NCBI GenBank assembly: GCA_012728595.1
Contig: JAAYEU010000071.1
Span: 1 to 35,569, forward strand
DNA length: 35,569 nt
Reading direction: 5' to 3'
Source: Tissierellia bacterium
GTDB taxonomy: Bacteria > Bacillota > Clostridia > Tissierellales > Tepidimicrobiaceae
Positions 5,810 through 35,569 of the stretch are shown piece by piece. The notes beneath the pieces are model-generated. The model was not told where the DNA came from. It was given only the letters and a program-made list of their open reading frames with translations, and did not search any database. The translations under genes and the position numbers were made by a program. How positions within the stretch are numbered: the first letter of the stretch is position 1; the number at the start of each line of letters is the position of its first letter.

Positions 5810-8800
5810 CTATTTGGATTTGTTATAATCTACCGTTCCCAATAAGGTGGAAAATATGTCACATAATGTTTTGGCTAGATTATAATTATTGTAGTCGAAT
5901 TCCTTTTCCTTTATGGGGACTGTAGCATAGACTACACCCTTGATCTGGTATTTAAATATCAATGGTATGGCTATTACCGATTGCCAATTTGGTGTCTTTA
6001 AGTTGAGATTTTCTTCACTTATACTTTCCCAGTCGATTAAGAATTCTCCCTCACCCTTATTTACAATCCTCTTAACTATGGTTTCGTTTAAAAAATCTGT
6101 TTCTACCCAATTTAAATTCTGTCTCCTTCTACCATAGGAATTAAGGATTTCTTTACTGCTGGGTTCGATTTCAATAAAGGCACAATTTTCCGCTTCTAAA
6201 ACCTCTATAACCCGGCCCAAGAAATTGAATATCTTGTCTTCATAGTCTATGTCTTCATTTGTTATTTTAATTACATCTAGCAGTGCTAAAATATTTCTTT
6301 GATCCCTATTTGTATTACCTGAAATAATCCCTGCTAATCGGTCTCCTCTGTTTAGGGTGTCGGCTAAATTTGTATCCCACATTATAACTCTATTTTTTCC
6401 TCTCTCCTTTGCACAATAAAGGGCCTGGTCTGCCTTTTCTATTAACTCCTCTTTAAACTGGCTATGGATAGGAAACATGGATATTCCAGTGCTTATGGTT
6501 ACCGCTTTCTCTATTGCAGGCAGCCTTATGTCCTCGATATTTTGTCTGATTTTTTCAGCTATGGTCTTAGCCTCGTCTTCCAACACATTTCTAAGTATTA
6601 TTATAAATTCTTCTCCACCATATCTTGCCACCAAGTCGGTACTTCTTATGCTTTTCTTTAATATCCTTCCTATTATGCTTAAAATTTCATCACCAGTCCT
6701 GTGACCATAGGTATCGTTTATCTCCTTAAATCCATCTAAATCCAACATTAAAACCGCAAAGGATTCCTCTTTCCGTTTAGCTTCCATCAGAATCTTGTTA
6801 AACTCGCTTTCATAATACTTTCTAGTATAGATACCCGTTAGCTTGTCTACATTGGAAAATACCCTTAATCTGTAATTGTCTATATTTATATATAGTATTT
6901 TGGCTAAAGAATTAACTAGATTTTGTCTTTCTTTATCAAATCTATTGAATACTCGCCCTGTTTCTAAGTAGACATATCCTTCTATTCTATTAGAACGGCC
7001 TACCACCTTCTTCCTTCTTTCTACACTAGGTGTTTCTGGCTGAATTAAGGGAACAAAAATGGGAACGCATATTATTGCCCTAATATTCTGTGGTAAAAAG
7101 TCCTTGTGTAAGCCTATAATATTGCTGCCCAAGCTGCTTAATAGTATTCCCCTGTCGTACCTACTCGATAAGGCCAGCAAATTCTCATTAGGCTTCCACT
7201 GATCCTTATCATCAAGGCTGGCAATGGGTATATAATCATCCTTTTCTTCATCATAGCTTAGAATAAATCCCTTTTGAGCTAGGGTCTCTTTGGATAGATA
7301 TTTCAAAATTAGATTTAAGTTAAATTGATAGTCATTTGTTAGTCTAGCTATTAATTCTTCAATGGAGGAAACATCCTTTATGTCCTCATATAGATAGTTT
7401 AATTTAGTAATCTTTATAAAATGCTCATCATCTATAAGATCGAATATGGAGTTATAATCAAAGTATATATCTATAGGCTCCTCAGCCTTCAAGTCATCTA
7501 TATATACAAAGTTTAACCTTTTATTGCTTATATTATAGATGGCCTCGGAAAGAATACGCTTTATGTCATCGGTCTTATGCCTTTTTATAAAGCTGATTTG
7601 TAGACTCCTCAAAGGCACCTTCTTTATTATGCTGTATATTAAATCTAAGGCCTCTAAAAGATAGTTTATAGCTTGATAATACTTCCCTTCCTTTGCAAAG
7701 TTAGTAGCTATTATGGTATTTAATAATATATCCAGATTTATTATATTGTGCTTTTTCATTTCCTTCTCTAGATTTTCTAAATACCTATTCCTGTCCTTAT
7801 CTCGCCTAGCACTATAGAGTAGTATCATTCTCAAATACTCCAACGGTAGTAAGGATAATTGCTTTCTTAATTCATTGTCTTCATCGATTATGTTGATTAA
7901 AAATTCATAATCATCTTCGAATAATGCTATCAAACCAAATTGCAGTAAGGAGTTCCTTCTTTGGAATATTAACCTGCTAGTCGTCAATTCGGCTAGCAGT
8001 TTTTCCATAGATTTTTTGTCATACTCTCCAGTTTTAAAGTATTTTACAAGAATAAGCCTTCTTTTAGACATTAGATATTCTATATTGTTAAAATCTTTAG
8101 AAAAATCTATGGCCTTATTGGAATATTCTATTGCCTTGTCCCATTGTCCAAAGGTAGAATAGAATTCACCGAGAAAGTTATAGTATTGTCCCACTATTTC
8201 GAAGCTAACGTTAGGGTTTTGAGCATAGCTTTCCTTCAAAATAGAATAACAATTATAACTGTGCCCATATTCTCCAGTAGCTAGATAGATTAGCCCTAGA
8301 TTGATGCTAGTTAAAAATATAATATTGGTATCCTTAATTTCTATTGCAATATTTCTTGCTTCTTCTATGTATTTTTTTGCTTCATTATAGTTTCCTAGAT
8401 TGCAATATACCTCTCCAATATTATTAAGAAATACCAACTTCAAATTTAACATGCCATATTTTTCAACAATCTCTAAGCCCTTTCGATAATACTCCATGGC
8501 CTCTTCATATTTACCGTTTTGAATGAATACGTTAGCAATATTATTGATGGGTTTGGTGGAATTGGTAAATTGGTCTGTAGCTTGAAAATATTTTATGCTC
8601 TCTTCATAGAATTCAATTGCAGCCTCTATATTCCCCTTAAAATATTCTACAAGACCCTTTAAGTTATAGATATCCCCCAATACTTCTTCTATTTTATTGT
8701 CCCTTGTAAAGCTTAATTGACCCTCTAGACTCCTTTCCATCTCATCCAATTTGCCTAAACTAAGCATGACCCTATTATATATTACTTCCGCCTTGGCTAT

Positions 8801-11224
8801 TCCCAATGGATAATGATTTTTTTCCGACAGGGATTTAATCTCTTCAGCCATAGTCAATATCTCATCTGTCAAATTTCTCTTAAGGTAGACCTCAGAAATC
8901 CCTAGCTTTGCAAGTACAATATACCTGTAATTCCTTATTTTTTCAGATTTTTCTAACAGTTCCTGGTATACTTTTAGGGCTTTATCGTTTTCACCCTTTA
9001 AGAAATATATGTTACCTAAAGACTCTAAAACCTCTAAGCTATATTCAATATCCATGTCTTTTACTATTTCATAAGCCTCTTCCCAAAGATATAGGGAGTG
9101 GCTGCTCATTATATTTTCCTCTTTTCTTGCTTCTTCTATTATTAGGCTTAGGGCCTTGTCCCTTTGCTTGGACGATATTAAATGGTGTATAAGCTCTTCC
9201 ATAATAGGCCTATAATTGTCCTTATAATTTCTTAGCAGTAGTTCTGCCAACTTCCTGTGGATGGCAATCCTTTCTTCCACGGGCATGTTATAGTATATTA
9301 GCCTTTTTAATTGGATATTATTTATGCCATAACTGTATCCCCAATCAGCTACCTTCTCTTCCAAAAGCCCCATCTTAACCAGTTCTTCCAGCCTTCCATT
9401 TAGATGTTTGTTTTCCTCATCTATTATTTTGGAAAGGATAGACTTAGAAATAGAGTCGTTATAAGCAGAAACTATCTTCATTATATCCATATATTGGCTA
9501 TCGATTAATGATATTTGATTCTTTAAGGTCTCGTCCCTACTGGTTGAAAAGTAAATATCCGTATATTTTTGGGTCCTAATCTCCCAAAATCCATTTTCAT
9601 TTATAAAAAGCTCTTCCCTTGCAAATAAATCCTTTAATACGTATTCAATATACCTTGGGTTACCATCACTTTCCCTTAATATTACAGCTGAAAACTTTAA
9701 GGGTTTATAGTTCATTCCCAATATGCATTGTATGAATTCCCCAATCTCTGCTAAGTTGAAGTTGGAAATCTTTATGGCTTCCACTCCTTCATAATTTAAA
9801 AGGTCGTTAAATATTTTTTCCTTTAAAGTTCCCTTGGGGATTTGCCTTTCATTGTAGGAGGCAATCATGACTAAGTTAGTATTATCCATATTTTCTACTA
9901 TATATTTAAATAAGCGCAAGAATTCCCCGCTACAATGGTCTATATTATCGATAATTAAGTATATTGGCCTTTCTTTAGTCAAATCCTTAAAGTAGTTGGT
10001 TATCCTATTATAGAGCCTAAGACTTTCCTTATCCCCGCCTATTTCATATAGGGGGTCAGCGTTTAAGAGGTATTTAAGCTCTGGTAAAACTTTAACAAAT
10101 TCTCTCCCGTACTTGTCCAGTATGTGATCTGGAGCATCTTTTAAAGTCTGTCTCAATATGTTGGTGGCAGGTTTTAGGCCTCGTTTGATGCTTTCGTTTA
10201 TTTCTAGAAAATATACTTCCCTTCCTCTCATCCTCAAGCGATGGGATATTTCTTTTAATAATCGAGTCTTTCCCACTCCTGTATCGCCGCTAACTAGTAC
10301 TATCCTTTTGTCCTTCTTATTGGCTATAAGATTATCATCTAGCTTAAGTACCCTTTCAACCTCCTCTTTTCTGCCAATTATCCTAGTTTTAAAGTTGAGA
10401 AAACTTCTCTCTTTGATTAAATCAAATTCATGCTCTATATTAAACAGCCTTTTAATATCCCTAATTATATCCCTTAAAGATATTTCTCTAGTTACTGGAT
10501 TATTTTTTGTTAACTCTCTTATAATATGCTTTAGATAGTCTACTTGAGCCCTGTCCATCTGATGGATATCCTTAAAACGATAGCTGGAACCCACTGAATA
10601 AAAGTCTTCCGTTAATAGATATAAAATCAACATCCCTAAGGAATACTTGTCCGAATTATAGCTTACAATTTCCTCCTGTTCCAACAATACCTCCGGAGCT
10701 AAAAAATACCTGGTAAGGTCTGAATAACTCCTGTTTACTACATTTTCGAATATATTGATTAAGTCCATGACCTTAATATCACCATTATCCAAAACAAATA
10801 TGTTAGATGGACTTAGATGTTTGTATACTATTCCTCTATAGTGTAGAAAATCCAGTAGATTACACAGCTTAAGTATGATTTTAAGCTTTTCTTCTAAACC
10901 TAGGCCCTCATGTACTTCAGCTAATGTAGGACTATCTATATATTCTGTAGTAGAATAATACCTTTTTATATTTATTTTTTTCCTGTCAATGGTTTTAATT
11001 ATAGAAAATTGTTCGCTTGAAAGCAAATTATCATGGCTAATGTGGGCGATATCGATGAAGTTGTTTATAAGATAATTGATGACCTTCTCCTGCCTATCCA
11101 TATTGTACATCTTCATAAATAGCCGTCTATCGTCATTCCAAAAATCTATTACTTCATAGACGCTATTATAAATGCTTTCCTCTACAATTTTGCTAATCTT
11201 ATACCTATTATCAACTAGCTTCAT
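5810..11224 (-). CDS. 1804-aa signalling protein: kinase-like, AAA ATPase, TPR, GAF, GGDEF, GAF
   Basis: Domains in order: protein-kinase-like fold (about 5-265); AAA_16/STAND-type ATPase (about 280-560) with Walker A GDTGVGKT at 313-320 and Walker B IYLIIDNID near 421-429; a helical and TPR region (about 640-1240) with clear repeats such as DIYNLKGLVEYFKGNIEAAI and VFLNNIGEVYCNLGNYNEA; a GAF-like domain (about 1285-1450); a GGDEF diguanylate cyclase (about 1453-1615) with DLDGFKEINDTYGH, active GGEEF at 1536-1540 and an RxxD inhibitory site R1527-D1530 five residues before it; and a second GAF-like domain (about 1640-1800). There is no membrane segment. The kinase domain keeps K38 and D154 but has YKHLSPSN where HRDLKPSN is expected, so it is probably a pseudokinase. 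PknK-like kinase-AAA-TPR proteins share the front half; the likely output here is c-di-GMP. It follows the marR gene by 28 bases. Confidence 0.88.
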   Translation of the reverse strand: MKLVDNRYKISKIVEESIYNSVYEVIDFWNDDRRLFMKMYNMDRQEKVINYLINNFIDIAHISHDNLLSSEQFSIIKTIDRKKINIKRYYSTTEYIDSPTLAEVHEGLGLEEKLKIILKLCNLLDFLHYRGIVYKHLSPSNIFVLDNGDIKVMDLINIFENVVNRSYSDLTRYFLAPEVLLEQEEIVSYNSDKYSLGMLILYLLTEDFYSVGSSYRFKDIHQMDRAQVDYLKHIIRELTKNNPVTREISLRDIIRDIKRLFNIEHEFDLIKERSFLNFKTRIIGRKEEVERVLKLDDNLIANKKDKRIVLVSGDTGVGKTRLLKEISHRLRMRGREVYFLEINESIKRGLKPATNILRQTLKDAPDHILDKYGREFVKVLPELKYLLNADPLYEIGGDKESLRLYNRITNYFKDLTKERPIYLIIDNIDHCSGEFLRLFKYIVENMDNTNLVMIASYNERQIPKGTLKEKIFNDLLNYEGVEAIKISNFNLAEIGEFIQCILGMNYKPLKFSAVILRESDGNPRYIEYVLKDLFAREELFINENGFWEIRTQKYTDIYFSTSRDETLKNQISLIDSQYMDIMKIVSAYNDSISKSILSKIIDEENKHLNGRLEELVKMGLLEEKVADWGYSYGINNIQLKRLIYYNMPVEERIAIHRKLAELLLRNYKDNYRPIMEELIHHLISSKQRDKALSLIIEEARKEENIMSSHSLYLWEEAYEIVKDMDIEYSLEVLESLGNIYFLKGENDKALKVYQELLEKSEKIRNYRYIVLAKLGISEVYLKRNLTDEILTMAEEIKSLSEKNHYPLGIAKAEVIYNRVMLSLGKLDEMERSLEGQLSFTRDNKIEEVLGDIYNLKGLVEYFKGNIEAAIEFYEESIKYFQATDQFTNSTKPINNIANVFIQNGKYEEAMEYYRKGLEIVEKYGMLNLKLVFLNNIGEVYCNLGNYNEAKKYIEEARNIAIEIKDTNIIFLTSINLGLIYLATGEYGHSYNCYSILKESYAQNPNVSFEIVGQYYNFLGEFYSTFGQWDKAIEYSNKAIDFSKDFNNIEYLMSKRRLILVKYFKTGEYDKKSMEKLLAELTTSRLIFQRRNSLLQFGLIALFEDDYEFLINIIDEDNELRKQLSLLPLEYLRMILLYSARRDKDRNRYLENLEKEMKKHNIINLDILLNTIIATNFAKEGKYYQAINYLLEALDLIYSIIKKVPLRSLQISFIKRHKTDDIKRILSEAIYNISNKRLNFVYIDDLKAEEPIDIYFDYNSIFDLIDDEHFIKITKLNYLYEDIKDVSSIEELIARLTNDYQFNLNLILKYLSKETLAQKGFILSYDEEKDDYIPIASLDDKDQWKPNENLLALSSRYDRGILLSSLGSNIIGLHKDFLPQNIRAIICVPIFVPLIQPETPSVERRKKVVGRSNRIEGYVYLETGRVFNRFDKERQNLVNSLAKILYINIDNYRLRVFSNVDKLTGIYTRKYYESEFNKILMEAKRKEESFAVLMLDLDGFKEINDTYGHRTGDEILSIIGRILKKSIRSTDLVARYGGEEFIIILRNVLEDEAKTIAEKIRQNIEDIRLPAIEKAVTISTGISMFPIHSQFKEELIEKADQALYCAKERGKNRVIMWDTNLADTLNRGDRLAGIISGNTNRDQRNILALLDVIKITNEDIDYEDKIFNFLGRVIEVLEAENCAFIEIEPSSKEILNSYGRRRQNLNWVETDFLNETIVKRIVNKGEGEFLIDWESISEENLNLKTPNWQSVIAIPLIFKYQIKGVVYATVPIKEKEFDYNNYNLAKTLCDIFSTLLGTVDYNKSK

Positions 11225-18458: not shown

Positions 18459-20210
18459 TTATTTAGCCAATATTTCTTCCAGTTCTTCTTCTTCTAATGA
18501 TTCTTTTACTATTAGTTTATCTGCTATCATATTTAAATATACCCTATTTTTCTCTAATAACTCTATTGTGTTATGGTAATATTTTTCTAATATGTCTCTT
18601 GCTCGATTGATTAAAGAAATATCATTATTTAAGTTGCTATTTAAAATTACATCATAATTTAACAAACCCAATTGGTCATCCATTCCGTAGGAGCCAATCA
18701 TGGCTAAGACCATCTTGGTTGCTTTTTGGAGGTCTGAAGAAGCGCCTGTAGTTATACAGTCCTTGCCAAAGACTATCTCCTCTGCCGCCCTGCCACCTAA
18801 GGCAATCATTATATTGGCAATAATATCCTTTTTAGTTTGATACATCTTGTCCGTTGGAATGTTTAAACTAAAGCCTCCCATACCTTTAGTGCTGGGAATT
18901 ATACTAACCTTAGTAACTCGGATGGAATCTGATACCCTTTTAGCCACTAGGGCATGGCCTGCTTCGTGGTAGGCTGTAATCTTCTTATCCTCTAACGAAA
19001 TGCCAGTCCTATCCTTCTTTTCCTCTCCTACCAACACTTTAAAATAAGCCTTATTGATATGGTCCATGGTGATTTTTTCAGCTTTAGTCTTTGCAGCTAT
19101 CATAGCCGATTCATTCATCAAGCTTTCAAGTTTAGCACCGCTAAAATAGACAGTTTCTAAAGCAACCTTTTTCAAATCTACATCCTCTGAAAGGGGTTTG
19201 TTTCTGCTATGGATTTTTAAGATTTTAAACCTAGCCTTAACATCTGGTAAACCTACTTCAATTTGTCGATCGAATCTACCCGGCCTTAATAAAGCCTCGT
19301 CTAAAGTATCAATCCTATTGGTGGCTGCTAAAACTATTATACCTTCGTTTCCTTTAAAACCGGACATTTCTGTTAATAAGGCGTTTAATGTCCTATCCCC
19401 TTCTTCACTACCACTTGGGGAATTGGCTCCTCTTCTCTTCTTACCTAGAGCATCTATCTCATCGATAAAGATTACAGATTTACCCTTTTCCTTGGCTTTT
19501 TTGAATAATCCTCTAATCCTGCTTGCCCCTAACCCGGCATAAACTTGTACAAAGTCTGAACCAGATACTGCATAGAAAGGAACATTGGCTTCATTAGCTA
19601 AAGCTTTAGCAAGAAGTGTCTTTCCCGTTCCTGGTGGTCCATATAATAAAACCCCTCTTGGAAGTCTTGCTCCGTAATTAAGATACTTTTCTGGGTCCTT
19701 AATGAAGTCTACCAGTTCCTTTAAGGATTCCTTGGCTTCTTCATTACCAGCCACATCAGCAAAAGTGACCCTTCCTTCCGTCAATGTAGCAGCATCTACA
19801 TCCGACATTTTGGTCATCTCTTTTTCTGCCTGTTTAGAACTATTTCTTATTATATAGCTTACCCCTCCAATAGCCGTCAGCATAAGAAGGAAGCTAAGCA
19901 CTTGATTTAATAAACCCTTTCCTCCATCTTCCACTACCTTTATATCGTTAAGAAGTAAAAACTCCTTAAAATCTTCCTTTCTAGGATTATCTGTAGTAAA
20001 CATTTCTCCATCTTTAAATTTCCCTTTTAATTTATCTGAACCATCTAACCTTATCTCTTCTACTAAATTCATCTCTACACGTTTAAGGAATTGTTTATAG
20101 CTTATCTCTTTATATTTAAAACTTCTATTTCTATGAAAACCTATACTTATTACCACAATTATGGATAGGGCTAAAACTAAAGCTAGTTTTACTTTTCCAT
20201 TTGTTTTCAT
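18459..20210 (-). CDS. ftsH-like: FtsH-type membrane-bound AAA+ zinc metalloprotease
   Basis: The ATG at 20210 sits seven bases behind GAGGAGG and is preferred to the adjacent TTG. The ~583 residues have two membrane helices (about 8-25 and 103-121) around an FtsH_ext-like external domain, an AAA+ module with Walker A GPPGTGKT (about 191-198), Walker [10 protein letters not shown], and the second-region-of-homology arginines in [11 protein letters not shown], and an M41 peptidase with HEAGH (about 415-419) plus the distal acidic ligand in [12 protein letters not shown]. The pore loop is FVQVYAG where most FtsH proteins have FVEMFVG. It is shorter than the usual 610-650 residues, mainly at the C terminus, and may be a paralogue of a housekeeping FtsH elsewhere. 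It degrades membrane and short-lived soluble proteins using ATP. Confidence 0.92.
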
Positions 20211-20245
20211 CAAATTGCCTCCTCGGTTTACATAATACTATAAAA

Positions 20246-26928: not shown

Positions 26929-27615
26929 ATGAGGCTCCCTAAACATATAGGGATAATTCCTGATGGCAATAGAAGATGGGCTGTAAAAAATGGTCTTCCC
27001 AAGGAAGCTGGCTATCAGGAGGGCTTAAAACCAGGGTTAGAGCTCTTTAAGTTATGCCAACAACTGGGCATAGAGGAAATAACCTATTATGGTTTTACCA
27101 TGGATAATACTAAAAGGCCTAGAGAACAAAGGTTGGCTTTTACCAAAGCCTGTGTAGAGGCAGTAAAGATGCTATCTAAAGAAAATGCATCTTTGCTAGT
27201 TGTGGGCAATACTGAATCTGACATGTTTCCCAAGGCCTTATTGCCCTTTACCATTAAAAGACAGAACTTTGGTAGCGGAGGAATTAAGGTAAACTTTCTA
27301 GTCAATTACGGTTGGCAGTGGGATTTAAGGAATTATTTTACTTCCCATGAAAAGAACCCTAATTTGACCCAATTAATAAGATCTAGGGATATTTCAAGAG
27401 TAGATCTTATAATACGTTGGGGAGGTAGAAGGCGATTAAGTGGCTTTCCTCCCCTTCAAACGGTATATTCAGATTTCTACGTAGTAGATGATTATTGGCC
27501 TGATTTTAAAGCAGAGCACCTTTATGCTGCTTTAAAATGGTATGACAAGCAGGATATAACCTTAGGGGGTAACCCCTTTTTTTATTGCTTTTATAGTAAT
27601 AAGATGCTAAAATAG
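26929..27615 (+). CDS. Divergent cis-prenyltransferase (UppS-family) homologue
   Basis: The 228 residues follow UppS almost from end to end: HIGIIPDGNRRWAVKNGLPKEAGYQEG at the start and RLSGFPPLQTVYSDFYVVDDYWPDF near the C terminus. Family members condense isopentenyl diphosphate onto allylic diphosphates in cis; housekeeping UppS makes undecaprenyl diphosphate. Several conserved positions differ: DGNGRW is D12-GNRRW, the usual AGH is AGY, FSTENW reads FTMDNT, and Arg167 occupies the Glu position of the RxGGExR segment. The Asp that binds magnesium diphosphate is retained. It is thus probably not the cell's main UppS and may make a shorter or different prenyl chain, or have lost activity. It may be transcribed with the serine dehydratase genes that follow 23 bases on. 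Confidence 0.82.
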   Translation: MRLPKHIGIIPDGNRRWAVKNGLPKEAGYQEGLKPGLELFKLCQQLGIEEITYYGFTMDNTKRPREQRLAFTKACVEAVKMLSKENASLLVVGNTESDMFPKALLPFTIKRQNFGSGGIKVNFLVNYGWQWDLRNYFTSHEKNPNLTQLIRSRDISRVDLIIRWGGRRRLSGFPPLQTVYSDFYVVDDYWPDFKAEHLYAALKWYDKQDITLGGNPFFYCFYSNKMLK

Positions 27616-28312: not shown

Positions 28313-29179
28313 ATGTTCAATACAGGCAAGGAATTGTTGGAATTATGTAAGGAAAAAAATAGGAAGATATCTGAAATAGTCATAGAAAGGGAAATGGAAC
28401 ATAATAAGATGTCCTTTGACGAGCTTATGGACAAGATGAAACTGGTCTTAGATACCATGTTAAAATCTGCCCATAGCGGATTAGATAAGGAAATCATATC
28501 GGTTTCAAAACTTTCAGGAGGCAATGCAAAAAAACTGGAGGATTATAAGAATAGTGGTAGGACCATTTGTGGCGACCTTATAAATTCCGCCATGGCCAAA
28601 GCCCTATCTACTTCAGAGGTCAATGCCTCTATGGGAAAAATTGTAGCCGCTCCAACGGCTGGCGCCTCGGGAATAGTGCCTAGTGCACTTATTACTGTAA
28701 AGGAAAAATTCAACCTAACGGAAGAAAACATGATACATGGTTTATTTACAGCTGGAGGAATTGGTGAAATAATAGCAAAAAATGCTACCATTTCTGGGGC
28801 TGAAGGTGGATGTCAAGCGGAATGTGGCGCTGCCAGCGCTATGGCTGCTGCTGCGGTAGTAGAAATGGCAGGTGGAGATGTTGAAGCCTCTTTAAACGCT
28901 GCTTCTTTTGCCTTAACCAATGTAATGGGCTTGGTATGCGACCCAGTAGCAGGTTTAGTGGAATTCCCTTGTGCTTTAAGAAATGCATCTGGGGTAATCA
29001 ATGCCTTGTTATCTGCAGATTTAGCAATGGCAGGAATTAAGTCTTTAATACCTTTTGATGAGGTAGTTGAAGCTATGTATATGGTAGGTAAGGCTATGCC
29101 AGAGTCTTTAAAGGAAACTGCCTTAGGTGGAGTAGCTGCCACTCCAACTGGAGAGGAGTTTAAAAGGAGGGTTTTATGA
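28313..29179 (+). CDS. sdaAA: L-serine dehydratase, iron-sulfur-dependent, alpha subunit
   Basis: The 288 residues contain the catalytic serine dehydratase region with KIVAAPTAGASGIVPSALI, GGIGEIIAKNATISGAEGGCQAECGAA and MGLVCDPVAGLVEFPCALRNA. C167, C209 and C220 have the 42- and 11-residue spacing of the three cluster ligands in characterised bacterial enzymes. No C-terminal tail cysteine is present. The start follows GGAGGGC at the end of sdaAB. The stop overlaps the start of the giant downstream gene in an ATGA, so translation is coupled. Serine degradation to pyruvate is a common energy route in amino-acid-fermenting anaerobes. Confidence 0.96.
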   Translation: MFNTGKELLELCKEKNRKISEIVIEREMEHNKMSFDELMDKMKLVLDTMLKSAHSGLDKEIISVSKLSGGNAKKLEDYKNSGRTICGDLINSAMAKALSTSEVNASMGKIVAAPTAGASGIVPSALITVKEKFNLTEENMIHGLFTAGGIGEIIAKNATISGAEGGCQAECGAASAMAAAAVVEMAGGDVEASLNAASFALTNVMGLVCDPVAGLVEFPCALRNASGVINALLSADLAMAGIKSLIPFDEVVEAMYMVGKAMPESLKETALGGVAATPTGEEFKRRVL

Positions 29180-32100
29180 TTAAAGCCTTTGAAAATGTAT
29201 ATGAGTTCATTTTAGAAGAGATAAAAAAGGATTATCTATTACCCTATCAAGAGGAGTTAGTTTGTTTTACAGAGGCTGATGGCTTTAAAAGAAATTTAAA
29301 AGAACTAATATTAAAAAAACAATATGATGCCCTATCATTAATAGATCTTTTACATGACCTCTTTGCTAAATATAAAGACATCTCAAATATGGATTGGTTA
29401 AACTATATCTATGATTATGTGTTAAGCCTATCCTTTCCTGAAAAGGTCGGTAGGGACTTTGAAAGTAGCTTAACTCCTCTAGTAATTTTTTTCCTAAATC
29501 TTTTAAGAAGATTTTGTCAATTAGAAATAGAGTATGATGAATCTAGCTTTCTCTATAAATATCCCATTAGCTTTTTAAATGAGGAAGAGGAAAAGGAAAG
29601 TAAATCTTTAAATGAGTATTTAACCTTTAAAGATTCCTTTTTTAACAACTGGATATACGAATTGATGAAATTAGATCTATCCTTGACCAATCACAACACC
29701 CTAGACCATGTAGTTGGAGTTAATCACTTAAGTCTTAATATAGCTAGACAATTAAAGGACTTAGGGCTGCCTATAGATTTAGGCATTGTAGTTGGAGCTG
29801 GCTTAGGCCATGATATAGGCAAATACGGTGTGGAAGATAATGACAAGGATAGGGTTCCTTATCTTCACTACTACTATACTGAAAAATGGTTTAATGAATA
29901 TAATATGCCAAAAACCGGCCATATTGCTACCAACCATTCCACCTGGGACTTGGAATTGGAAAATCTCCCCTTGGAATCCCTAGTCCTAATCTATGCCGAT
30001 TTCAGGGTGAAAAACAAAAGGGATGAAGCGGGCCATAAAATGCACATCTACACCCTAGATGAAGCCTACCGCGTCATACTCAACAAACTGGACAACTTAG
30101 ATTCAAAAAAGGAAAGAAGGTATGAAAAGGTATATAAAAAACTCAAGGATTTTGAAGACTATATTATAAGCCTAGGGGTAGATACTAGTTTAAGGAAGAA
30201 GTCCACAAAAAAAGTGGATCCAATCCCCTATTCCTTAATAGATGGTGAAGAGATAGTAAAAAACATAAAGCACTTTGCCATTGAACATAATATAAATCTT
30301 ATGGCTAGGCTCTTAGAAGATGCTAGTTTCGATAATTTACTGGAGATGGCAAGATCTGAATACAACTGGAGGAGGCTTCGCCAAATTTTACAAATATTCA
30401 AAGAATATTCTACCTACCTAACCCAAAAACAAAAAATAGTAACCTTGAATTTTCTAACGGACCTTTTATTCCACAGGGAAGAAGATATACGGAATGAGGC
30501 CGCCCAGTTAATAGGTCTTCTAATAAGCCAGTATGATGAGGAATATAGAAAGGAAATACCCAAATCAGTTAAGCCAGACCATAAGGATACTACTAGCTAT
30601 CAGCTATTAAAGGAATTATTGGATTTTATCTTATATCCAGATCATAGGGTGGCAGATTCCCATATAGAATGGCAATATAACCTAAAAACCATTATTAAAT
30701 CCTTATTCCTAAAGGCCAGAGTAGAAAACTATAAAGAGTATTCCCAACTTTTGTTGGAATATTACCAACACTATAAGTCCATGGCCTTTACCAGCCAATT
30801 GTATCTAGCTCAAACCATTAAGTACATTCCCCTAGCCTACTTAAAAGATGAGGAGTTAAACAGGCTAAAAGATTATATCCTTAACCAGTTGGACTCTAGT
30901 GAATTGGAAATAAGGCTTTCTACTCTAGATATAATTGACGAAATATTCTCTGAATTAAAGGATAAGGGTGGCTTCCTAGCAGCCTTAGATAGTTGGATAA
31001 GGAATAATCTACAGATTTCTCCCTACCCTTCCGAAAACTATTTGAAATTTAAATTGGCTAGAAAGCTTAATATGGAAGAAGATATCTTAAATATATTAGA
31101 AAATAATTACAAGGGGGTAGAGGAAAACACCTCCGAGATTTACTTAAAGAATTTAAAAACGGCTACGGAATGGATGGATAAAAAGGTAAATATAGATATC
31201 CTATACGACCAGGTAAAAAAATCCCCTAAAACTTTTGGCCTATATACCGGCATGCATTTTTGTAATCTATTAAAAGTCAGTGCCATGGAAAAAGTGCGTA
31301 ATTATGCAGGCCACACACTACTCCATATATTTAAATTTCTATCTCAGGAGGAAAGAAACGATATTGCCATAGAGCTATTAAGGGCTTTAGAGATGCAAAA
31401 CTACCAATTTACCAAGTATATTCCCGATTATCTTGGTAGACTTTTATTATACCTACAACCTACTGAATTGGATGAAGTAATAGATGATTTAGAGGAAAAA
31501 GTCAGACTATCCAACACCCAAATTGTCTTCTTACTACTAAAAACCATAGGTGTATGCATCGAAAATTATCCCGAATATGCTAAAAGATTTGATGAATCCA
31601 AGATATCCAATAAAAGGAGATTGGAAAGACTGTTGGGGCTTTTATTAAATGGAATGGTTTCCTTTAACGATGAAATAAAGACCGAGGCTTTTAGAATCAT
31701 AGGCAGTCAAATTTTCAATTCAAGTAAACTATCCCTAGAGGATAAACATAATATCTTTATCCTAATTGGGAAGAAGATTCTGACCCTACTGCCTAAGAAG
31801 GAGGATGACGAATTTGTATTCTTAAGTAACTCTTCCTCCCTAAACAGCATATACAGGTTCATATTGGACTATGAGCTAAACTACGGCAGCATAAGGATTA
31901 AAGAACATAAAAGGATAGCCTTTTTCCCTGGCAGCTTCGACCCCTTCTCTTTAAGCCATAAAAAAATCGTAACGGAGATTAAGGAAAAAGGCTTTGAAGT
32001 ATATTTAGCAGTAGATGAGTTTTCCTGGTCTAAAAGGACTCAGCCCCATAGGTTTAGAAGGGATATCATAAACATAGCCATCGCCCATGAAAGGGATGTA

Positions 32101-34023
32101 TATTTATTCCCCAGCCAAATTCCAATTAATATAAGCAACGACAAGGATTTGTCTAAGTTGAAATCCCTTTTCAAAAACAAGGAACTGTTTATAGTTATGG
32201 GGACAGATGTTTTGGTTAATGCATCTGCCTATAAAAAGGATGGGCTAATAAACCAATTTAACCATATAGTATTCGATAGAAAGAGTATCCACTCCAAGGA
32301 TGATGATGACTACATCTTGGAGGAAAGGTTAAAAAATATAAGGGGTAAGGTTTTAAAGCTTTCCTTACCTCCCCAGTACGAGGATATTAGTTCTAGCCAG
32401 ATAAGGCGTTCTATAGATTTAAATAGGGATATTTCCAACCTAATAGACCCACTAGCTCAAAGATATATCTATAGGTATGGCCTATATTTAAATGAGCCTC
32501 AATATAAATTTCTAGTCCAAACTAAGACCTTAGAAACGCAAGTAATCGATAAAATAGACCATTCCACAATTGAATACTTAAGGGGTAAATTGACCCATAG
32601 AATAGATGAAAAGGCTCTTTATGAATTGAGGGATAAGCTAAGTCCAACTATAGTATTGGTTAGGGAGACCAAGGATAATTCCATATTGGGCTTTTCTACC
32701 CTTTACTGGGTGAAGAGCAATATGCTCTACGATGAATTTGAAAATACCAATATAACGGAATATTTTAGGCAGCATGCTAAGGGTAGAATGGTATTGATAT
32801 CTGGCATATATACCAAGGACAATAGCTATAGTAGTGCTGAAATCATTTTAAATGAAAGCTTAACCCATTGCATCAATACCGACTATAATTATGCCATATT
32901 TAAAAATTGCCTAACTAAATATAATGAAGACTTTATAAAGGAGAACCTAAAGCATCAGGGCTTTATTGAAACCCCCTTTATCTACAATGACTGCCCAATT
33001 TTTATGGTAGATATGAACAATCCTATGACCTTAAATCAAGACTTGGAAAATCTATTAAAGCCACCTTTTGAAGGGATTTTAGAGGTAAATGAGGTCATTG
33101 GAAGAACCAGAAAGAAGTTAAAAGAGGCCATCTCTAATTTATATCCAGGTGAACTCTTGATCTCCTTTAATAGGAATATGATATACAGTAAATTAATTGA
33201 AAAGATATGCAGCACCAATCAAGTACCCATCCTTCAAAAAAAGCAGAGTATGTTAGGCCCAAATATCTGTGTTCCCTTTGGCTCAATATTAAACGGTGCA
33301 GTGCTGCCAAATACCGTTACTAAAACCATGCACACGGAAAAGGTATTTAATTCAAGTATAAGCGATTTTACCATTCAAGCTTACCCTAATTATCTAAGCT
33401 TAGAAGAACAGACTAAAGTGATTAAATCCTTCAATAGACCAGTAATTCTAGTAGACGACTTACTCCATAAGGGGTATAGATTAAATGTAATAGTGCCCTT
33501 ATTACGGGAAGCAAGCATAAGTATCAAGAAGATAATAGTTGGAATCCTAACGGGTAGGGGCCAAGAAATGGGAAAGGTTAAAAATATTCCTGTAGACTGT
33601 GCCTACTTTATCCCGAATTTAAAACTATGGTTTAATGAAAGCGATCTATATCCCTTCATAGGAGGAGATATGGTAGAAAAAGACGATTTTAAGGATTACT
33701 TAATACCCAGTGTGAATTTAATACTACCCTATGTTTCACCTAACTTTATAAAAAACACCCCTACTAAAAATATATACAATCTATCTGAAACTTGCCTTAA
33801 GAATGCAATTGAAATCTTTGAAGTTATAGAAGGGGTCTATCAGGATATTAATGGGAAAAACCTAATAGTTAAAAACTTGGGAGAGATATTGATCTCCCCT
33901 AGAAGGCCAGATTTATACAAGAGTATAGAATCCATTTTAAACTTAAAGCCTTCCTCCTGTCTAAAGAGGGATTTAGGCCATCTTGAAAGGATTAAAAATT
34001 TAGTCTTTAGAGAAGTATTGTAA
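29176..34023 (+). CDS. 1615-aa multi-domain protein: HD, helical repeats, NadD-like, GNAT-like, phosphoribosyltransferase
   Basis: The ATG overlaps the sdaAA stop (ATGA). Domains by eye: helical N terminus (1-165); HD phosphohydrolase (about 170-335) with LDH178, GLGH212-D213-IGKYG, TGH249 and YAD275F; a long HEAT/ARM-like helical region (about 360-900); a nucleotidyltransferase like NadD (about 912-1105) with FFPGSFDPFSLSH (918-928), VMGTD (1008-1011) and ISSSQIRRSI (1071-1080); a tentative GNAT-like segment (about 1115-1280); and a type I phosphoribosyltransferase region (about 1330-1480) whose PRPP loop is RPVILVDDLLHKGYR (D1427, D1428). The HxGH of NadD reads SLSH. The usual HD-nadD neighbourhood (yqeK beside nadD) makes the HD-NadD fusion plausible. 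Soluble; no signal peptide. Domain calls for HD, NadD and PRTase are good; overall function unknown. Confidence 0.8.
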   Translation: MIKAFENVYEFILEEIKKDYLLPYQEELVCFTEADGFKRNLKELILKKQYDALSLIDLLHDLFAKYKDISNMDWLNYIYDYVLSLSFPEKVGRDFESSLTPLVIFFLNLLRRFCQLEIEYDESSFLYKYPISFLNEEEEKESKSLNEYLTFKDSFFNNWIYELMKLDLSLTNHNTLDHVVGVNHLSLNIARQLKDLGLPIDLGIVVGAGLGHDIGKYGVEDNDKDRVPYLHYYYTEKWFNEYNMPKTGHIATNHSTWDLELENLPLESLVLIYADFRVKNKRDEAGHKMHIYTLDEAYRVILNKLDNLDSKKERRYEKVYKKLKDFEDYIISLGVDTSLRKKSTKKVDPIPYSLIDGEEIVKNIKHFAIEHNINLMARLLEDASFDNLLEMARSEYNWRRLRQILQIFKEYSTYLTQKQKIVTLNFLTDLLFHREEDIRNEAAQLIGLLISQYDEEYRKEIPKSVKPDHKDTTSYQLLKELLDFILYPDHRVADSHIEWQYNLKTIIKSLFLKARVENYKEYSQLLLEYYQHYKSMAFTSQLYLAQTIKYIPLAYLKDEELNRLKDYILNQLDSSELEIRLSTLDIIDEIFSELKDKGGFLAALDSWIRNNLQISPYPSENYLKFKLARKLNMEEDILNILENNYKGVEENTSEIYLKNLKTATEWMDKKVNIDILYDQVKKSPKTFGLYTGMHFCNLLKVSAMEKVRNYAGHTLLHIFKFLSQEERNDIAIELLRALEMQNYQFTKYIPDYLGRLLLYLQPTELDEVIDDLEEKVRLSNTQIVFLLLKTIGVCIENYPEYAKRFDESKISNKRRLERLLGLLLNGMVSFNDEIKTEAFRIIGSQIFNSSKLSLEDKHNIFILIGKKILTLLPKKEDDEFVFLSNSSSLNSIYRFILDYELNYGSIRIKEHKRIAFFPGSFDPFSLSHKKIVTEIKEKGFEVYLAVDEFSWSKRTQPHRFRRDIINIAIAHERDVYLFPSQIPINISNDKDLSKLKSLFKNKELFIVMGTDVLVNASAYKKDGLINQFNHIVFDRKSIHSKDDDDYILEERLKNIRGKVLKLSLPPQYEDISSSQIRRSIDLNRDISNLIDPLAQRYIYRYGLYLNEPQYKFLVQTKTLETQVIDKIDHSTIEYLRGKLTHRIDEKALYELRDKLSPTIVLVRETKDNSILGFSTLYWVKSNMLYDEFENTNITEYFRQHAKGRMVLISGIYTKDNSYSSAEIILNESLTHCINTDYNYAIFKNCLTKYNEDFIKENLKHQGFIETPFIYNDCPIFMVDMNNPMTLNQDLENLLKPPFEGILEVNEVIGRTRKKLKEAISNLYPGELLISFNRNMIYSKLIEKICSTNQVPILQKKQSMLGPNICVPFGSILNGAVLPNTVTKTMHTEKVFNSSISDFTIQAYPNYLSLEEQTKVIKSFNRPVILVDDLLHKGYRLNVIVPLLREASISIKKIIVGILTGRGQEMGKVKNIPVDCAYFIPNLKLWFNESDLYPFIGGDMVEKDDFKDYLIPSVNLILPYVSPNFIKNTPTKNIYNLSETCLKNAIEIFEVIEGVYQDINGKNLIVKNLGEILISPRRPDLYKSIESILNLKPSSCLKRDLGHLERIKNLVFREVL

Positions 34024-34038: not shown

Positions 34039-35289
34039 ATGATCAATTTTTATAGATATAAGGATAAATACTTTTTCTCCTTCCTAAAATATGATGAATT
34101 TGAAAAGGTGCGAGAAGAAGAACTTAAGAGGGTTGAAGGGAATATCTATTTTCTAAATAGACTAGACCCTATGAAATCGAGAAGAAGTTTCCTGGTAAGT
34201 CATCCCTCCCTCTTGTTCATCGATAAAGAGGGAGTTGAGCTGCTCCTTTTAGATACTAAAGACTATTCCCATTTGATACCCCCTTGGATAAGGGATAGGA
34301 TTTATAAAGGACTGGTTACCTCAATCAATACCTCTTATCCTAATTGGGAAACTGAGTTATATAAAGAAGATAAGTCCAAATGGAAAGTAAATCTATTAGC
34401 TTTAGGGGATGTAGGCAGTACCCTATTAATTGGCTTAAGACTATTAGGTAAGGATTGCATAGATGAGATAGGAATTTATGATAGGAATATCAATAGGTTG
34501 AAGCGGTGGGAATATGAAGCCAACCAAATAGTAAAACCCTTTTACAAGGAACCATTTCCAAAGGTTATTCCTTTGAAAATGGATGAGCTATTCGATTGTG
34601 ATATCTTTATCTTTTGTGCCTCCAAGGGCATACCCCCTGTAGGCAGTAAGGTAGATGATGTAAGGATGGCTCAATTTGAGTCCAATTCTAATATAATAAA
34701 GGAATATGCAACTTTGGCGAGGGATGTAAACTTTAAGGGAATTTTTGCTGTCGTTTCAGACCCGGTAGATTTATTGTGTAAGGTAGCCTTTTTGGAAAGC
34801 AATAAGGATGAAAGAGGAGAGTTTGATTTCAAAGGTTTAGCATCAAACCAGATAATTGGTTACGGACTGGGAGTTATGAACGGCAGAGCCTGCTTTTATG
34901 CAGAAAAATCCAAGGATACCATCCATTATCTAGAAGAAGGAAGGGTGTTTGGTCCTCATGGGGAGGGATTAATCGTAGCCGACAGTATAGAAAACTATAA
35001 TGAAGAAATTTCAGACTTCCTAACCCACAAAACATTGAATGCCAATAAGGAGATTAGAAAATTTGGATTTAAACCCTATGTCGCCCCTAGCCTTTCTTCA
35101 GGTGCCCTCTCCATTATAGCCACCATTAAAGGAGAATGGTTCTATGGTTCAACCTATATGGGAGAGGCTTATATGGGGTCTAAGTGTAGGCTTAGAAATA
35201 ACAGCATAGAAATTGAACAGTTGAAACTTCCTTCTAAACTATTTGAAAAAATAGAAAAGACCTATGAAAGGCTAGTGAGTATAATATGA
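34039..35289 (+). CDS. Divergent lactate/malate dehydrogenase-fold protein
   Basis: The 416 residues carry ~115 unrecognised N-terminal residues and then a Rossmann domain: VNLLALGDVGSTLLIGLRLLG (G123 to G126) with acidic D148 in IGIYDRN, which favours NAD over NADP. Next come DCDIFIFCASKGIPP, R209 at the substrate-loop Arg position, and VVSDPVDLL like the SNPVDIL of lactate dehydrogenases. The C-terminal domain keeps R283 (equivalent to the substrate-binding Arg171) and H307 in GPHGE, but the Asp that partners the catalytic His is replaced (Met280). It may be an oxidoreductase with altered chemistry or an NAD-binding non-enzyme. It follows the giant gene by 15 bases and overlaps the next gene by ATGA. 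Confidence 0.8.
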   Translation: MINFYRYKDKYFFSFLKYDEFEKVREEELKRVEGNIYFLNRLDPMKSRRSFLVSHPSLLFIDKEGVELLLLDTKDYSHLIPPWIRDRIYKGLVTSINTSYPNWETELYKEDKSKWKVNLLALGDVGSTLLIGLRLLGKDCIDEIGIYDRNINRLKRWEYEANQIVKPFYKEPFPKVIPLKMDELFDCDIFIFCASKGIPPVGSKVDDVRMAQFESNSNIIKEYATLARDVNFKGIFAVVSDPVDLLCKVAFLESNKDERGEFDFKGLASNQIIGYGLGVMNGRACFYAEKSKDTIHYLEEGRVFGPHGEGLIVADSIENYNEEISDFLTHKTLNANKEIRKFGFKPYVAPSLSSGALSIIATIKGEWFYGSTYMGEAYMGSKCRLRNNSIEIEQLKLPSKLFEKIEKTYERLVSII

Positions 35290-35569
35290 AAGAATACTAT
35301 CTAATATTGCCGGAAGAACCCTCTCCCCTATTAAAAAAGATGATAGAAAAGACTACCAAAGACATAGATTATACCGTCTTAAAAGATTATGAAGCCTTAC
35401 CCGACCTAAGAAACAAAAGGCTGATCTTTGCCGTTGAATTACCCATAACGGGGACTAGCAATAAATTAAACGATTTTTTCTTAAAGCTCTTTCAAAGGGG
35501 ATATGACTCCTTATCTGGTTCGGAAGGGATTGTATTAATCCACAGTAACTACCAGCACTTTACTAAAAC
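35286..35569 (+). CDS. 5' part of an unrecognised gene (third gene of the coupled cluster)
   Basis: A reading frame opens at the ATG at 35286, which overlaps the previous stop (ATGA), and stays open to the window end, giving 94 residues. The product begins MKEYYLILPEEPSPLLKK and later has RLIFAVELPITGTSNKLNDFF and GSEGIVLIHSNYQHF. The strand-helix pattern is faintly like a flavodoxin-like or Rossmann protein, but I do not recognise a family. The coupling suggests it works with the two genes before it. Confidence 0.6.
   Translation, partial: MKEYYLILPEEPSPLLKKMIEKTTKDIDYTVLKDYEALPDLRNKRLIFAVELPITGTSNKLNDFFLKLFQRGYDSLSGSEGIVLIHSNYQHFTK

Follow-up and report, generated by a model that had tools for sequence, protein, structure and literature searches.

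A 1,615-residue protein with HD, HEAT, NadD-fold, GNAT-fold and PRTase-like parts, and its co-inherited partner genes, in a Tissierellia bacterium

The stretch of DNA analysed here (the window) is contig JAAYEU010000071.1, 35,569 nt in length, from assembly GCA_012728595.1 of a Tissierellia bacterium. A single open frame on its + strand (29176-34023) encodes the whole 1,615-residue chain of a multidomain protein, called A, and is followed by a gene for a protein of the lactate/malate dehydrogenase (LDH/MDH) superfamily (B) and by the beginning of a flavoprotein gene (C). A is kept at full length and under purifying selection, and the three genes are inherited as a set and are co-transcribed in layout. 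A is tentatively read as a multidomain nucleotide-processing enzyme encoded by the first gene of a dedicated module, A-B-C, which may make and proofread an NAD-like molecule with a nucleotidyl linkage, for use or repair by B and C; the reading is held with somewhat less than even confidence. Its observed basis is the architecture of A, the conserved residues of the HD and NadD active sites, the gene layout and the co-inheritance. The features concerned are listed below, with phosphoribosyltransferase abbreviated as PRTase, phosphoribosyl pyrophosphate as PRPP, the ratio of nonsynonymous to synonymous substitution rates as dN/dS and the predicted local distance difference test score as pLDDT.

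29176-34020, + strand: gene A, HD / HEAT / NadD-fold / GNAT-fold / PRTase-like protein, 1,615 aa, stop codon at 34021-34023; full-length homologues
29176-29622, + strand: A residues ~1-149, helical N-terminal region; predicted model, identity and dN/dS
29623-30195, + strand: A residues ~150-340, putative HD domain; PF01966 and residue counts
30247-31884, + strand: A residues ~358-903, predicted HEAT/ARM solenoid; model (pLDDT 88.7), Pfam and fold matches
31909-32490, + strand: A residues 912-1105, predicted NadD-fold nucleotidyltransferase; PF01467/TIGR00482, fold (Z 16.4) and motifs
32527-33030, + strand: A residues ~1118-1285, predicted GNAT-fold domain; Z 13.0 to 6v3t and 2cnm, alignment
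33088-33675, + strand: A residues ~1305-1500, PRTase-like domain with altered PRPP loop (1423-1435); weak PF00156, Foldseek rows of uracil PRTases, residue counts
34039-35289, + strand: gene B, LDH/MDH-superfamily protein, 416 aa, with an N-terminal extension of ~110 residues; PF00056, catalytic residues, co-inheritance
35286-35567, + strand: gene C, truncated after 94 residues where the contig ends; complete product an FMN_red flavoprotein of ~349 aa that carries an N-terminal domain

Domain organization and conservation of protein A

Full-length frames of A occur in many genomes, and a chance fusion or a frameshift artefact was therefore rejected. Active-site residues were counted in 39 distinct A proteins, which remained of 51 frames found after identical C-terminal tails had been removed. 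The chain was predicted with AlphaFold2 as two models, from alignments of 37 and 38 homologues, with a pLDDT of 88.7 and a predicted template modelling score (pTM) of 0.84 for residues 1-905 and a pLDDT of 87.4 and a pTM of 0.87 for residues 880-1615. In comparisons that involve the window protein, dS is partly saturated; for three pairs in which it is not, or hardly, saturated, a simple counting method gave dN/dS values of 0.017-0.136 in each domain beyond residue 150 and of 0.108-0.231 for residues 1-150. The HD and PRTase parts are by this measure under constraint equal to that of the NadD part, and residues ~1-149 are the least conserved of the chain. In Clostridium sp. Cult2 (locus L004, 10001-14488) and in G019 C16, an in-frame loss removes residues ~1003-1120 and with them the greater part of the NadD domain's second half. 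The two are possibly one genome, and the shortening is either a real loss or an assembly fault.

The predicted NadD-fold domain is matched in the window protein by PF01467 (E 5.7e-8) and, over the whole model, by TIGR00482 (E 1.3e-10, 41.6 bits). In the fold search it superposed on 4rpi with a Z of 16.4 (183 residues, root mean square deviation (rmsd) 2.8 Å), and ranks 1-24 were all NadDs. Judged by their residues, the catalytic motifs appear intact. The first reads G-[S/T/A]-F-D-P-F-[S/T]-x-[S/G]-H, with G919, F921, D922, P923, F924 and the last His (H928) each in 39/39 proteins, Ser (33/39) or Thr (6/39) at position 925 and Ser (33/39) or Gly (6/39) at position 927. The motifs [T/H]xGH and ISSTxIR of the nucleotidyltransferase alpha/beta-phosphodiesterase superfamily are thus found as [S/T]x[S/G]H and I/V-S-S-x-x-I-R. 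S1072, S1073, I1076 and R1077 of the latter are present in 38/38 proteins, as are G1009 and D1011 of a G-x-D motif and Y1019; the L004 protein, which has no residues in the G1009-R1077 stretch, is left out of these counts.

In these motifs and in its fold, the domain is like bacterial NadD (TIGR00482), but it lies below the equivalog cut-off of that family (112.45 bits) and the first position of its TxGH-type motif is mostly Ser. Two further differences emerged from an alignment with 12 of the 22 NadDs collected from this and other genomes: SWSK of A (39/39) lies over PPHK, which contains the P-H-K lysine of ordinary NadDs, and Tyr1019 lies over their conserved Trp, which we take to stack on the nicotinate ring. 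Passages from papers on the NadD aromatic platform, which deal with inhibitors near Trp117 and with stacking in the nicotinosyl pocket, give indirect support. Housekeeping nadD and yqeK are separate, adjacent genes in the same genome, and a role of A as the housekeeping NadD/YqeK was rejected for this reason; in the genome search with TIGR00482, A scored 47 bits vs 203 bits for the genome's own nadD.

The putative HD hydrolase rests on Pfam and on seven invariant residues. PF01966 matches residues 175-256 of the window protein with 22 bits, exactly its cut-off of 22, and an N-terminal fragment of A with 23.3 bits; 29 of the 39 family members match. H178, H212, D213, H231, H249, H254 and D275 are each present in 39/39, and the Pfam score together with the H...HD...D metal-type residues place A in the HD superfamily. 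The assignment is sequence-based, the fold search with the N-terminal half of A having returned HEAT proteins throughout. Sequence-profile searches of the PDB gave no significant match for the HD, GNAT or PRTase regions of A.

The helical part that follows is best described as a HEAT/ARM solenoid. Its model matches HEAT, TOG and karyopherin proteins with a best Z of 15.1, a value to be read against the 13-14 that helix-rich models often score from arrangement alone, but Pfam HEAT is also found in 22/39 members. The first-pass annotation of the sequence had described HD and NadD-type domains in one chain with ~550 helical residues between them, and both statements were borne out. Structure prediction, which it had proposed as the check, recovered the NadD fold, and the refuting outcome it had named, absence of the folds at these sites, did not arise for NadD; the PRTase is modestly supported by fold and the HD domain by sequence.

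Between the NadD and PRTase parts lies a predicted GNAT-fold domain, which had been missed in that annotation. Its model aligns with 6v3t (Z 13.0, 152 residues, 3.2 Å) and with 2cnm (Z 13.0, 133 residues, 3.0 Å). The motif R/Q-x-x-G-x-G/A, which we assume to form the acetyl-coenzyme A loop of GNATs, was not seen by eye in a 34-sequence alignment of this part, and Pfam gave no GNAT family match in 34 members of A.

A PRTase fold is modestly supported by the model. PF00156 matches A with an E of 0.025, under the cut-off, and 11/38 members match. Foldseek, run with the 880-1615 model, returned uracil PRTases in rows 29, 36 and 38 (E 9e-5 to 1.8e-4), which superpose poorly on it (TMt 0.40-0.43, rmsd 7.7-10 Å). 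Besides this Foldseek match, A has the hydrophobic strand and the acidic pair of the PRPP loop in common with uracil-type and other type I PRTases: D1427 and D1428 are each found in 38/39 proteins (DD in 37/39, DE in 1, TD in 1). Unlike in type I PRTases, K-G-Y-R replaces T-G-x-T in most members (K1432 34/39, G1433 38/39, Y1434 35/39, R1435 38/39), and the loop thus retains its acidic pair and Gly and has lost both Thr. Phosphoribosyl transfer by A is doubtful because the canonical T-G-x-T is lacking. The PRTase motif that had been reported at 1421-1435 was placed correctly, though on weaker evidence.

Genes B and C and inheritance of the set

A is the first gene of a compact operon. In the window its end is separated from B by 15 bases, and the stop of B and the start of C share 4 bases; across the loci compared the A-B gap ranges from -41 to +90 bases, and the B-C overlap is 4 bases in 20/23. 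B and C each adjoin A in 23/24 neighbourhoods (the window and 23 others). In L069 (982-7401), a locus of a distant genome, A is apart from B and C, which lie on another contig of the same genome; its neighbours, to judge from their sequences, look like three TerD genes, TelA and a CitE-type lyase.

Full-size homologues of A (E < 1e-200 for the best piece) are present in 42/61 relatives and absent in 19/61, one ordinary NadD match (G025) being left out of the count. Among 398 genomes sampled across the phylum, A was found in 8 at the same threshold; a raw tally of 57 consisted mostly of ordinary NadD matches, which were left out. B (E < 1e-100) and C (E < 1e-20) occurred in these eight genomes only, and nine weaker B matches in the sample were ordinary LDH/MDH proteins with a GEHGD motif. 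In the 61 relatives, where co-inheritance was counted for B, B accompanied A in 41 of 42 genomes and was absent from all those that lack A; in the sole relative with A but without B (G037), A is cut by the contig end. The holders of A include [Clostridium] ultunense DSM 10521, Clostridium sp. Cult2, a Tissierellia metagenome-assembled genome and Acetoanaerobium noterae. Retention within one order looks vertical.

B resembles L-lactate/malate dehydrogenases in its Rossmann domain, two substrate arginines and the position of the catalytic His, and differs from them in its N-terminal extension, a loop insertion and its active site. When B was aligned with nine LDH/MDH proteins and the usual roles of the LDH catalytic and substrate residues were applied, His307, Arg209 and Arg283 were found in 23/23, Met280 stood at the position of the catalytic Asp in 23/23, and Asp replaced Asn before PVD in 23/23. 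At the acidic position that closes the second strand, 18/23 have Asp. TIGR01771 gave 32.9 bits vs a cut-off of 303.55, and B lies below all LDH cut-offs. In L072 (6626-7612, - strand), from a distant genome, B has 328 aa and no N-terminal extension; the extension is therefore dispensable in at least one lineage.

The remainder of C lies on a different contig of this genome, at its end. PF03358 matches it with 71.6 bits vs a cut-off of 24 (L003 protein), and the cysteines C207-x2-C210-x4-C215-x8-C224 are present in 21/21 proteins, a pattern whose residues recall iron-sulfur flavoproteins. C is like the NADPH-dependent FMN reductase or iron-sulfur flavoprotein type, from which an additional N-terminal domain of ~160 residues sets it apart; it matched none of the NCBIfam models. 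The gene run that adjoins the end of C in the genome of the window (L104, 465-7924) is convergent to C and looks, by names we assign from sequence, like a nucleoside-type BMP/ABC transporter, an oxidoreductase and a nucleoside phosphorylase.

Proposed function and alternatives

A co-inherited set with an apparently intact NadD-type site, present beside a normal nadD-yqeK pair, suggests that a second nucleotidyl-linked molecule is made or policed. The NadD-fold domain would link a nucleoside monophosphate, AMP or a different one, to a partner that bears a phosphate and a ring and that Tyr1019 may hold in place of the NadD Trp. The HD domain would cleave mis-made or surplus product, and the PRTase-like domain may bind or supply the phosphoribosyl (or another phosphate) partner. 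The solenoid would dock the parts of A and probably also its two partners; the LDH-like B and the iron-sulfur/flavin-type C would carry out redox steps on the product or use it as a coenzyme.

The closest known system is the mycoplasma NadD-YqeK fusion (JCVISYN3A_0380). There, the YqeK part cleaves the C and U analogues of nicotinic acid adenine dinucleotide, proofreading of NadD is proposed, and YqeK-NadD is described as a metabolite-repair pair; the fusion has two domains and is the sole housekeeping enzyme (PMC9426524). By analogy with the fusion, A plausibly works by the same pair of activities, since it too has NadD-type adenylyltransferase-like and HD phosphohydrolase-like parts in one chain. 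Unlike in the mycoplasma protein, the HD part of A is N-terminal and ~550 HEAT residues away, GNAT-fold and PRTase-like domains are added, and the genome also has separate nadD and yqeK. NadD fused or adjacent to YqeK is known; no description of the A architecture, with its scaffold and extra domains, or of an A-B-C operon was found in the open-licence literature.

Several points weigh against the proposal that A-B-C makes and proofreads an NAD-like molecule. It names no definite substrate or product and gives the GNAT fold no role, and these, with the altered PRPP loop, are its weakest links. The NadD equivalog score is far under the cut-off, so that the acceptor of the reaction could be a phosphate compound other than a pyridine nucleotide. 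Of the features that make up a type I PRPP loop, namely a hydrophobic strand, an acidic pair and T-G-x-T, A does not have the full set. The HD domain had been compared in the first-pass annotation with YqeK; its metal-type residues hold, but the YqeK model TIGR00488, run on the same genome, found the separate yqeK and not A, and an hhalign comparison of the two was insignificant (prob 2%). The L-lactate dehydrogenase set of a catalytic Asp-His pair with substrate Arg is not present in B, which, lacking the LDH Asp and having Asp in place of the LDH Asn, may not be an ordinary dehydrogenase. A further partner of the module could also sit outside the ~7-kb flanks covered.

That A is instead a sensor or regulator, a HEAT scaffold whose NadD, PRTase and GNAT folds mostly bind NAD-like ligands to control B and C or other proteins, is considered unlikely. 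The altered PRPP loop, a GNAT fold without the acetyl-coenzyme A loop and the fact that HEAT proteins are typical protein-binding scaffolds would fit such a role; the near-invariant NadD catalytic motifs and the HD metal-type residues exceed the needs of binding.

A low probability is given to coenzyme-damage repair, in which C would re-oxidise or reduce abnormal dihydro-pyridine nucleotides, B would bind or handle them, and A would cleave (HD) and rebuild (NadD fold) the dinucleotide. The YqeK-NadD repair pair favours it, as does the patchy, dispensable distribution of the module, which is absent in 19/61 relatives. Isomeric NADH strongly inhibits LDH and MDH and is cleared in animals by a flavoprotein (PMC7660482). 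C, however, is of the FMN_red/flavodoxin type and, by the searches made, not a renalase relative. A bolder form of the proposal for an NAD-like product, held to be similarly improbable, is that A-B-C makes up the entire core of a coenzyme system not yet described, in which A would build and proofread an NAD-like dinucleotide that is not NAD and B and C would be its dedicated redox enzymes in place of NAD. It is suggested by the acceptor pocket and the PRPP-type loop of A, which have diverged in a conserved way.

Action on RNA ends or tRNA, with nucleotidyl addition by the NadD fold, phosphohydrolysis by HD and RNA held on the helical repeats, a binding role raised in the first-pass annotation, is very unlikely: HEAT solenoids can bind nucleic acid-protein complexes, but the NadD-fold enzymes matched in the PDB have small phosphates as substrates, nothing obvious connects the LDH-like and flavin partners with RNA, and Pfam found no RNA-binding domain in A. 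Least probable of all is an anti-phage or stress-defence protein; a multidomain enzyme on a scaffold and the Ter-type surroundings of the L069 gene recall such systems, but these surroundings occur in 1/24 loci, a PADLOC search at E 0.01 matched none of the three proteins, A was found in no phage record, and its retention in one order looks vertical.

Other associations were rejected. Phage cargo is opposed by the same lack of phage records; in IMG/VR, A matched only three loci, over 31-50 residues of the nucleotidyltransferase motif, and B none. The one 'plasmid' match is a 2.63-Mb Acetoanaerobium noterae record, in effect a chromosome. A strict link to sporulation fails in both directions, A being present without a Spo0A_C match in, e.g., G021, G023 and G032 and absent from G008, which has one.

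The first-pass observation is confirmed as real and its interpretation is partly supported; channelling of a nucleotide and binding of protein or RNA by the helical region stay at the level of inference. Besides the GNAT fold, it had missed the separate nadD-yqeK pair and the operon with B and C, which tells more on function than the A chain alone.

Other genes of the window and significance

Upstream of A, a serine dehydratase alpha gene (28313-29179) ends in an overlap of 4 bases with the start of A, and a short cis-prenyltransferase (UppS-like) gene lies at 26929-27615 (+ strand). UppS and serine dehydratase alpha are each near A in 12/24 loci and the beta gene in 11/24; because they are found in 11-12/24 loci and not in the distant genomes, serine dehydratase and UppS were rejected as parts of the system. 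An FtsH-type AAA protease of 584 aa with an M41 peptidase domain is encoded at 18459-20213 (- strand), and a few of the 24 loci have related pieces upstream of A. At 5810-11224 (- strand) lies the gene for a protein of 1804 aa with a Ser/Thr kinase, an AAA/STAND-type ATPase, many tetratricopeptide repeats and a C-terminal GGDEF domain, an unusual chain from kinase to diguanylate cyclase.

Identification of the product of A would extend the known metabolism of many anaerobic Bacillota by a pathway. It would also test how general HD proofreading of nucleotidyltransferases is, and it would provide an example, rare in bacteria, of small-molecule enzymes organised by a HEAT solenoid.

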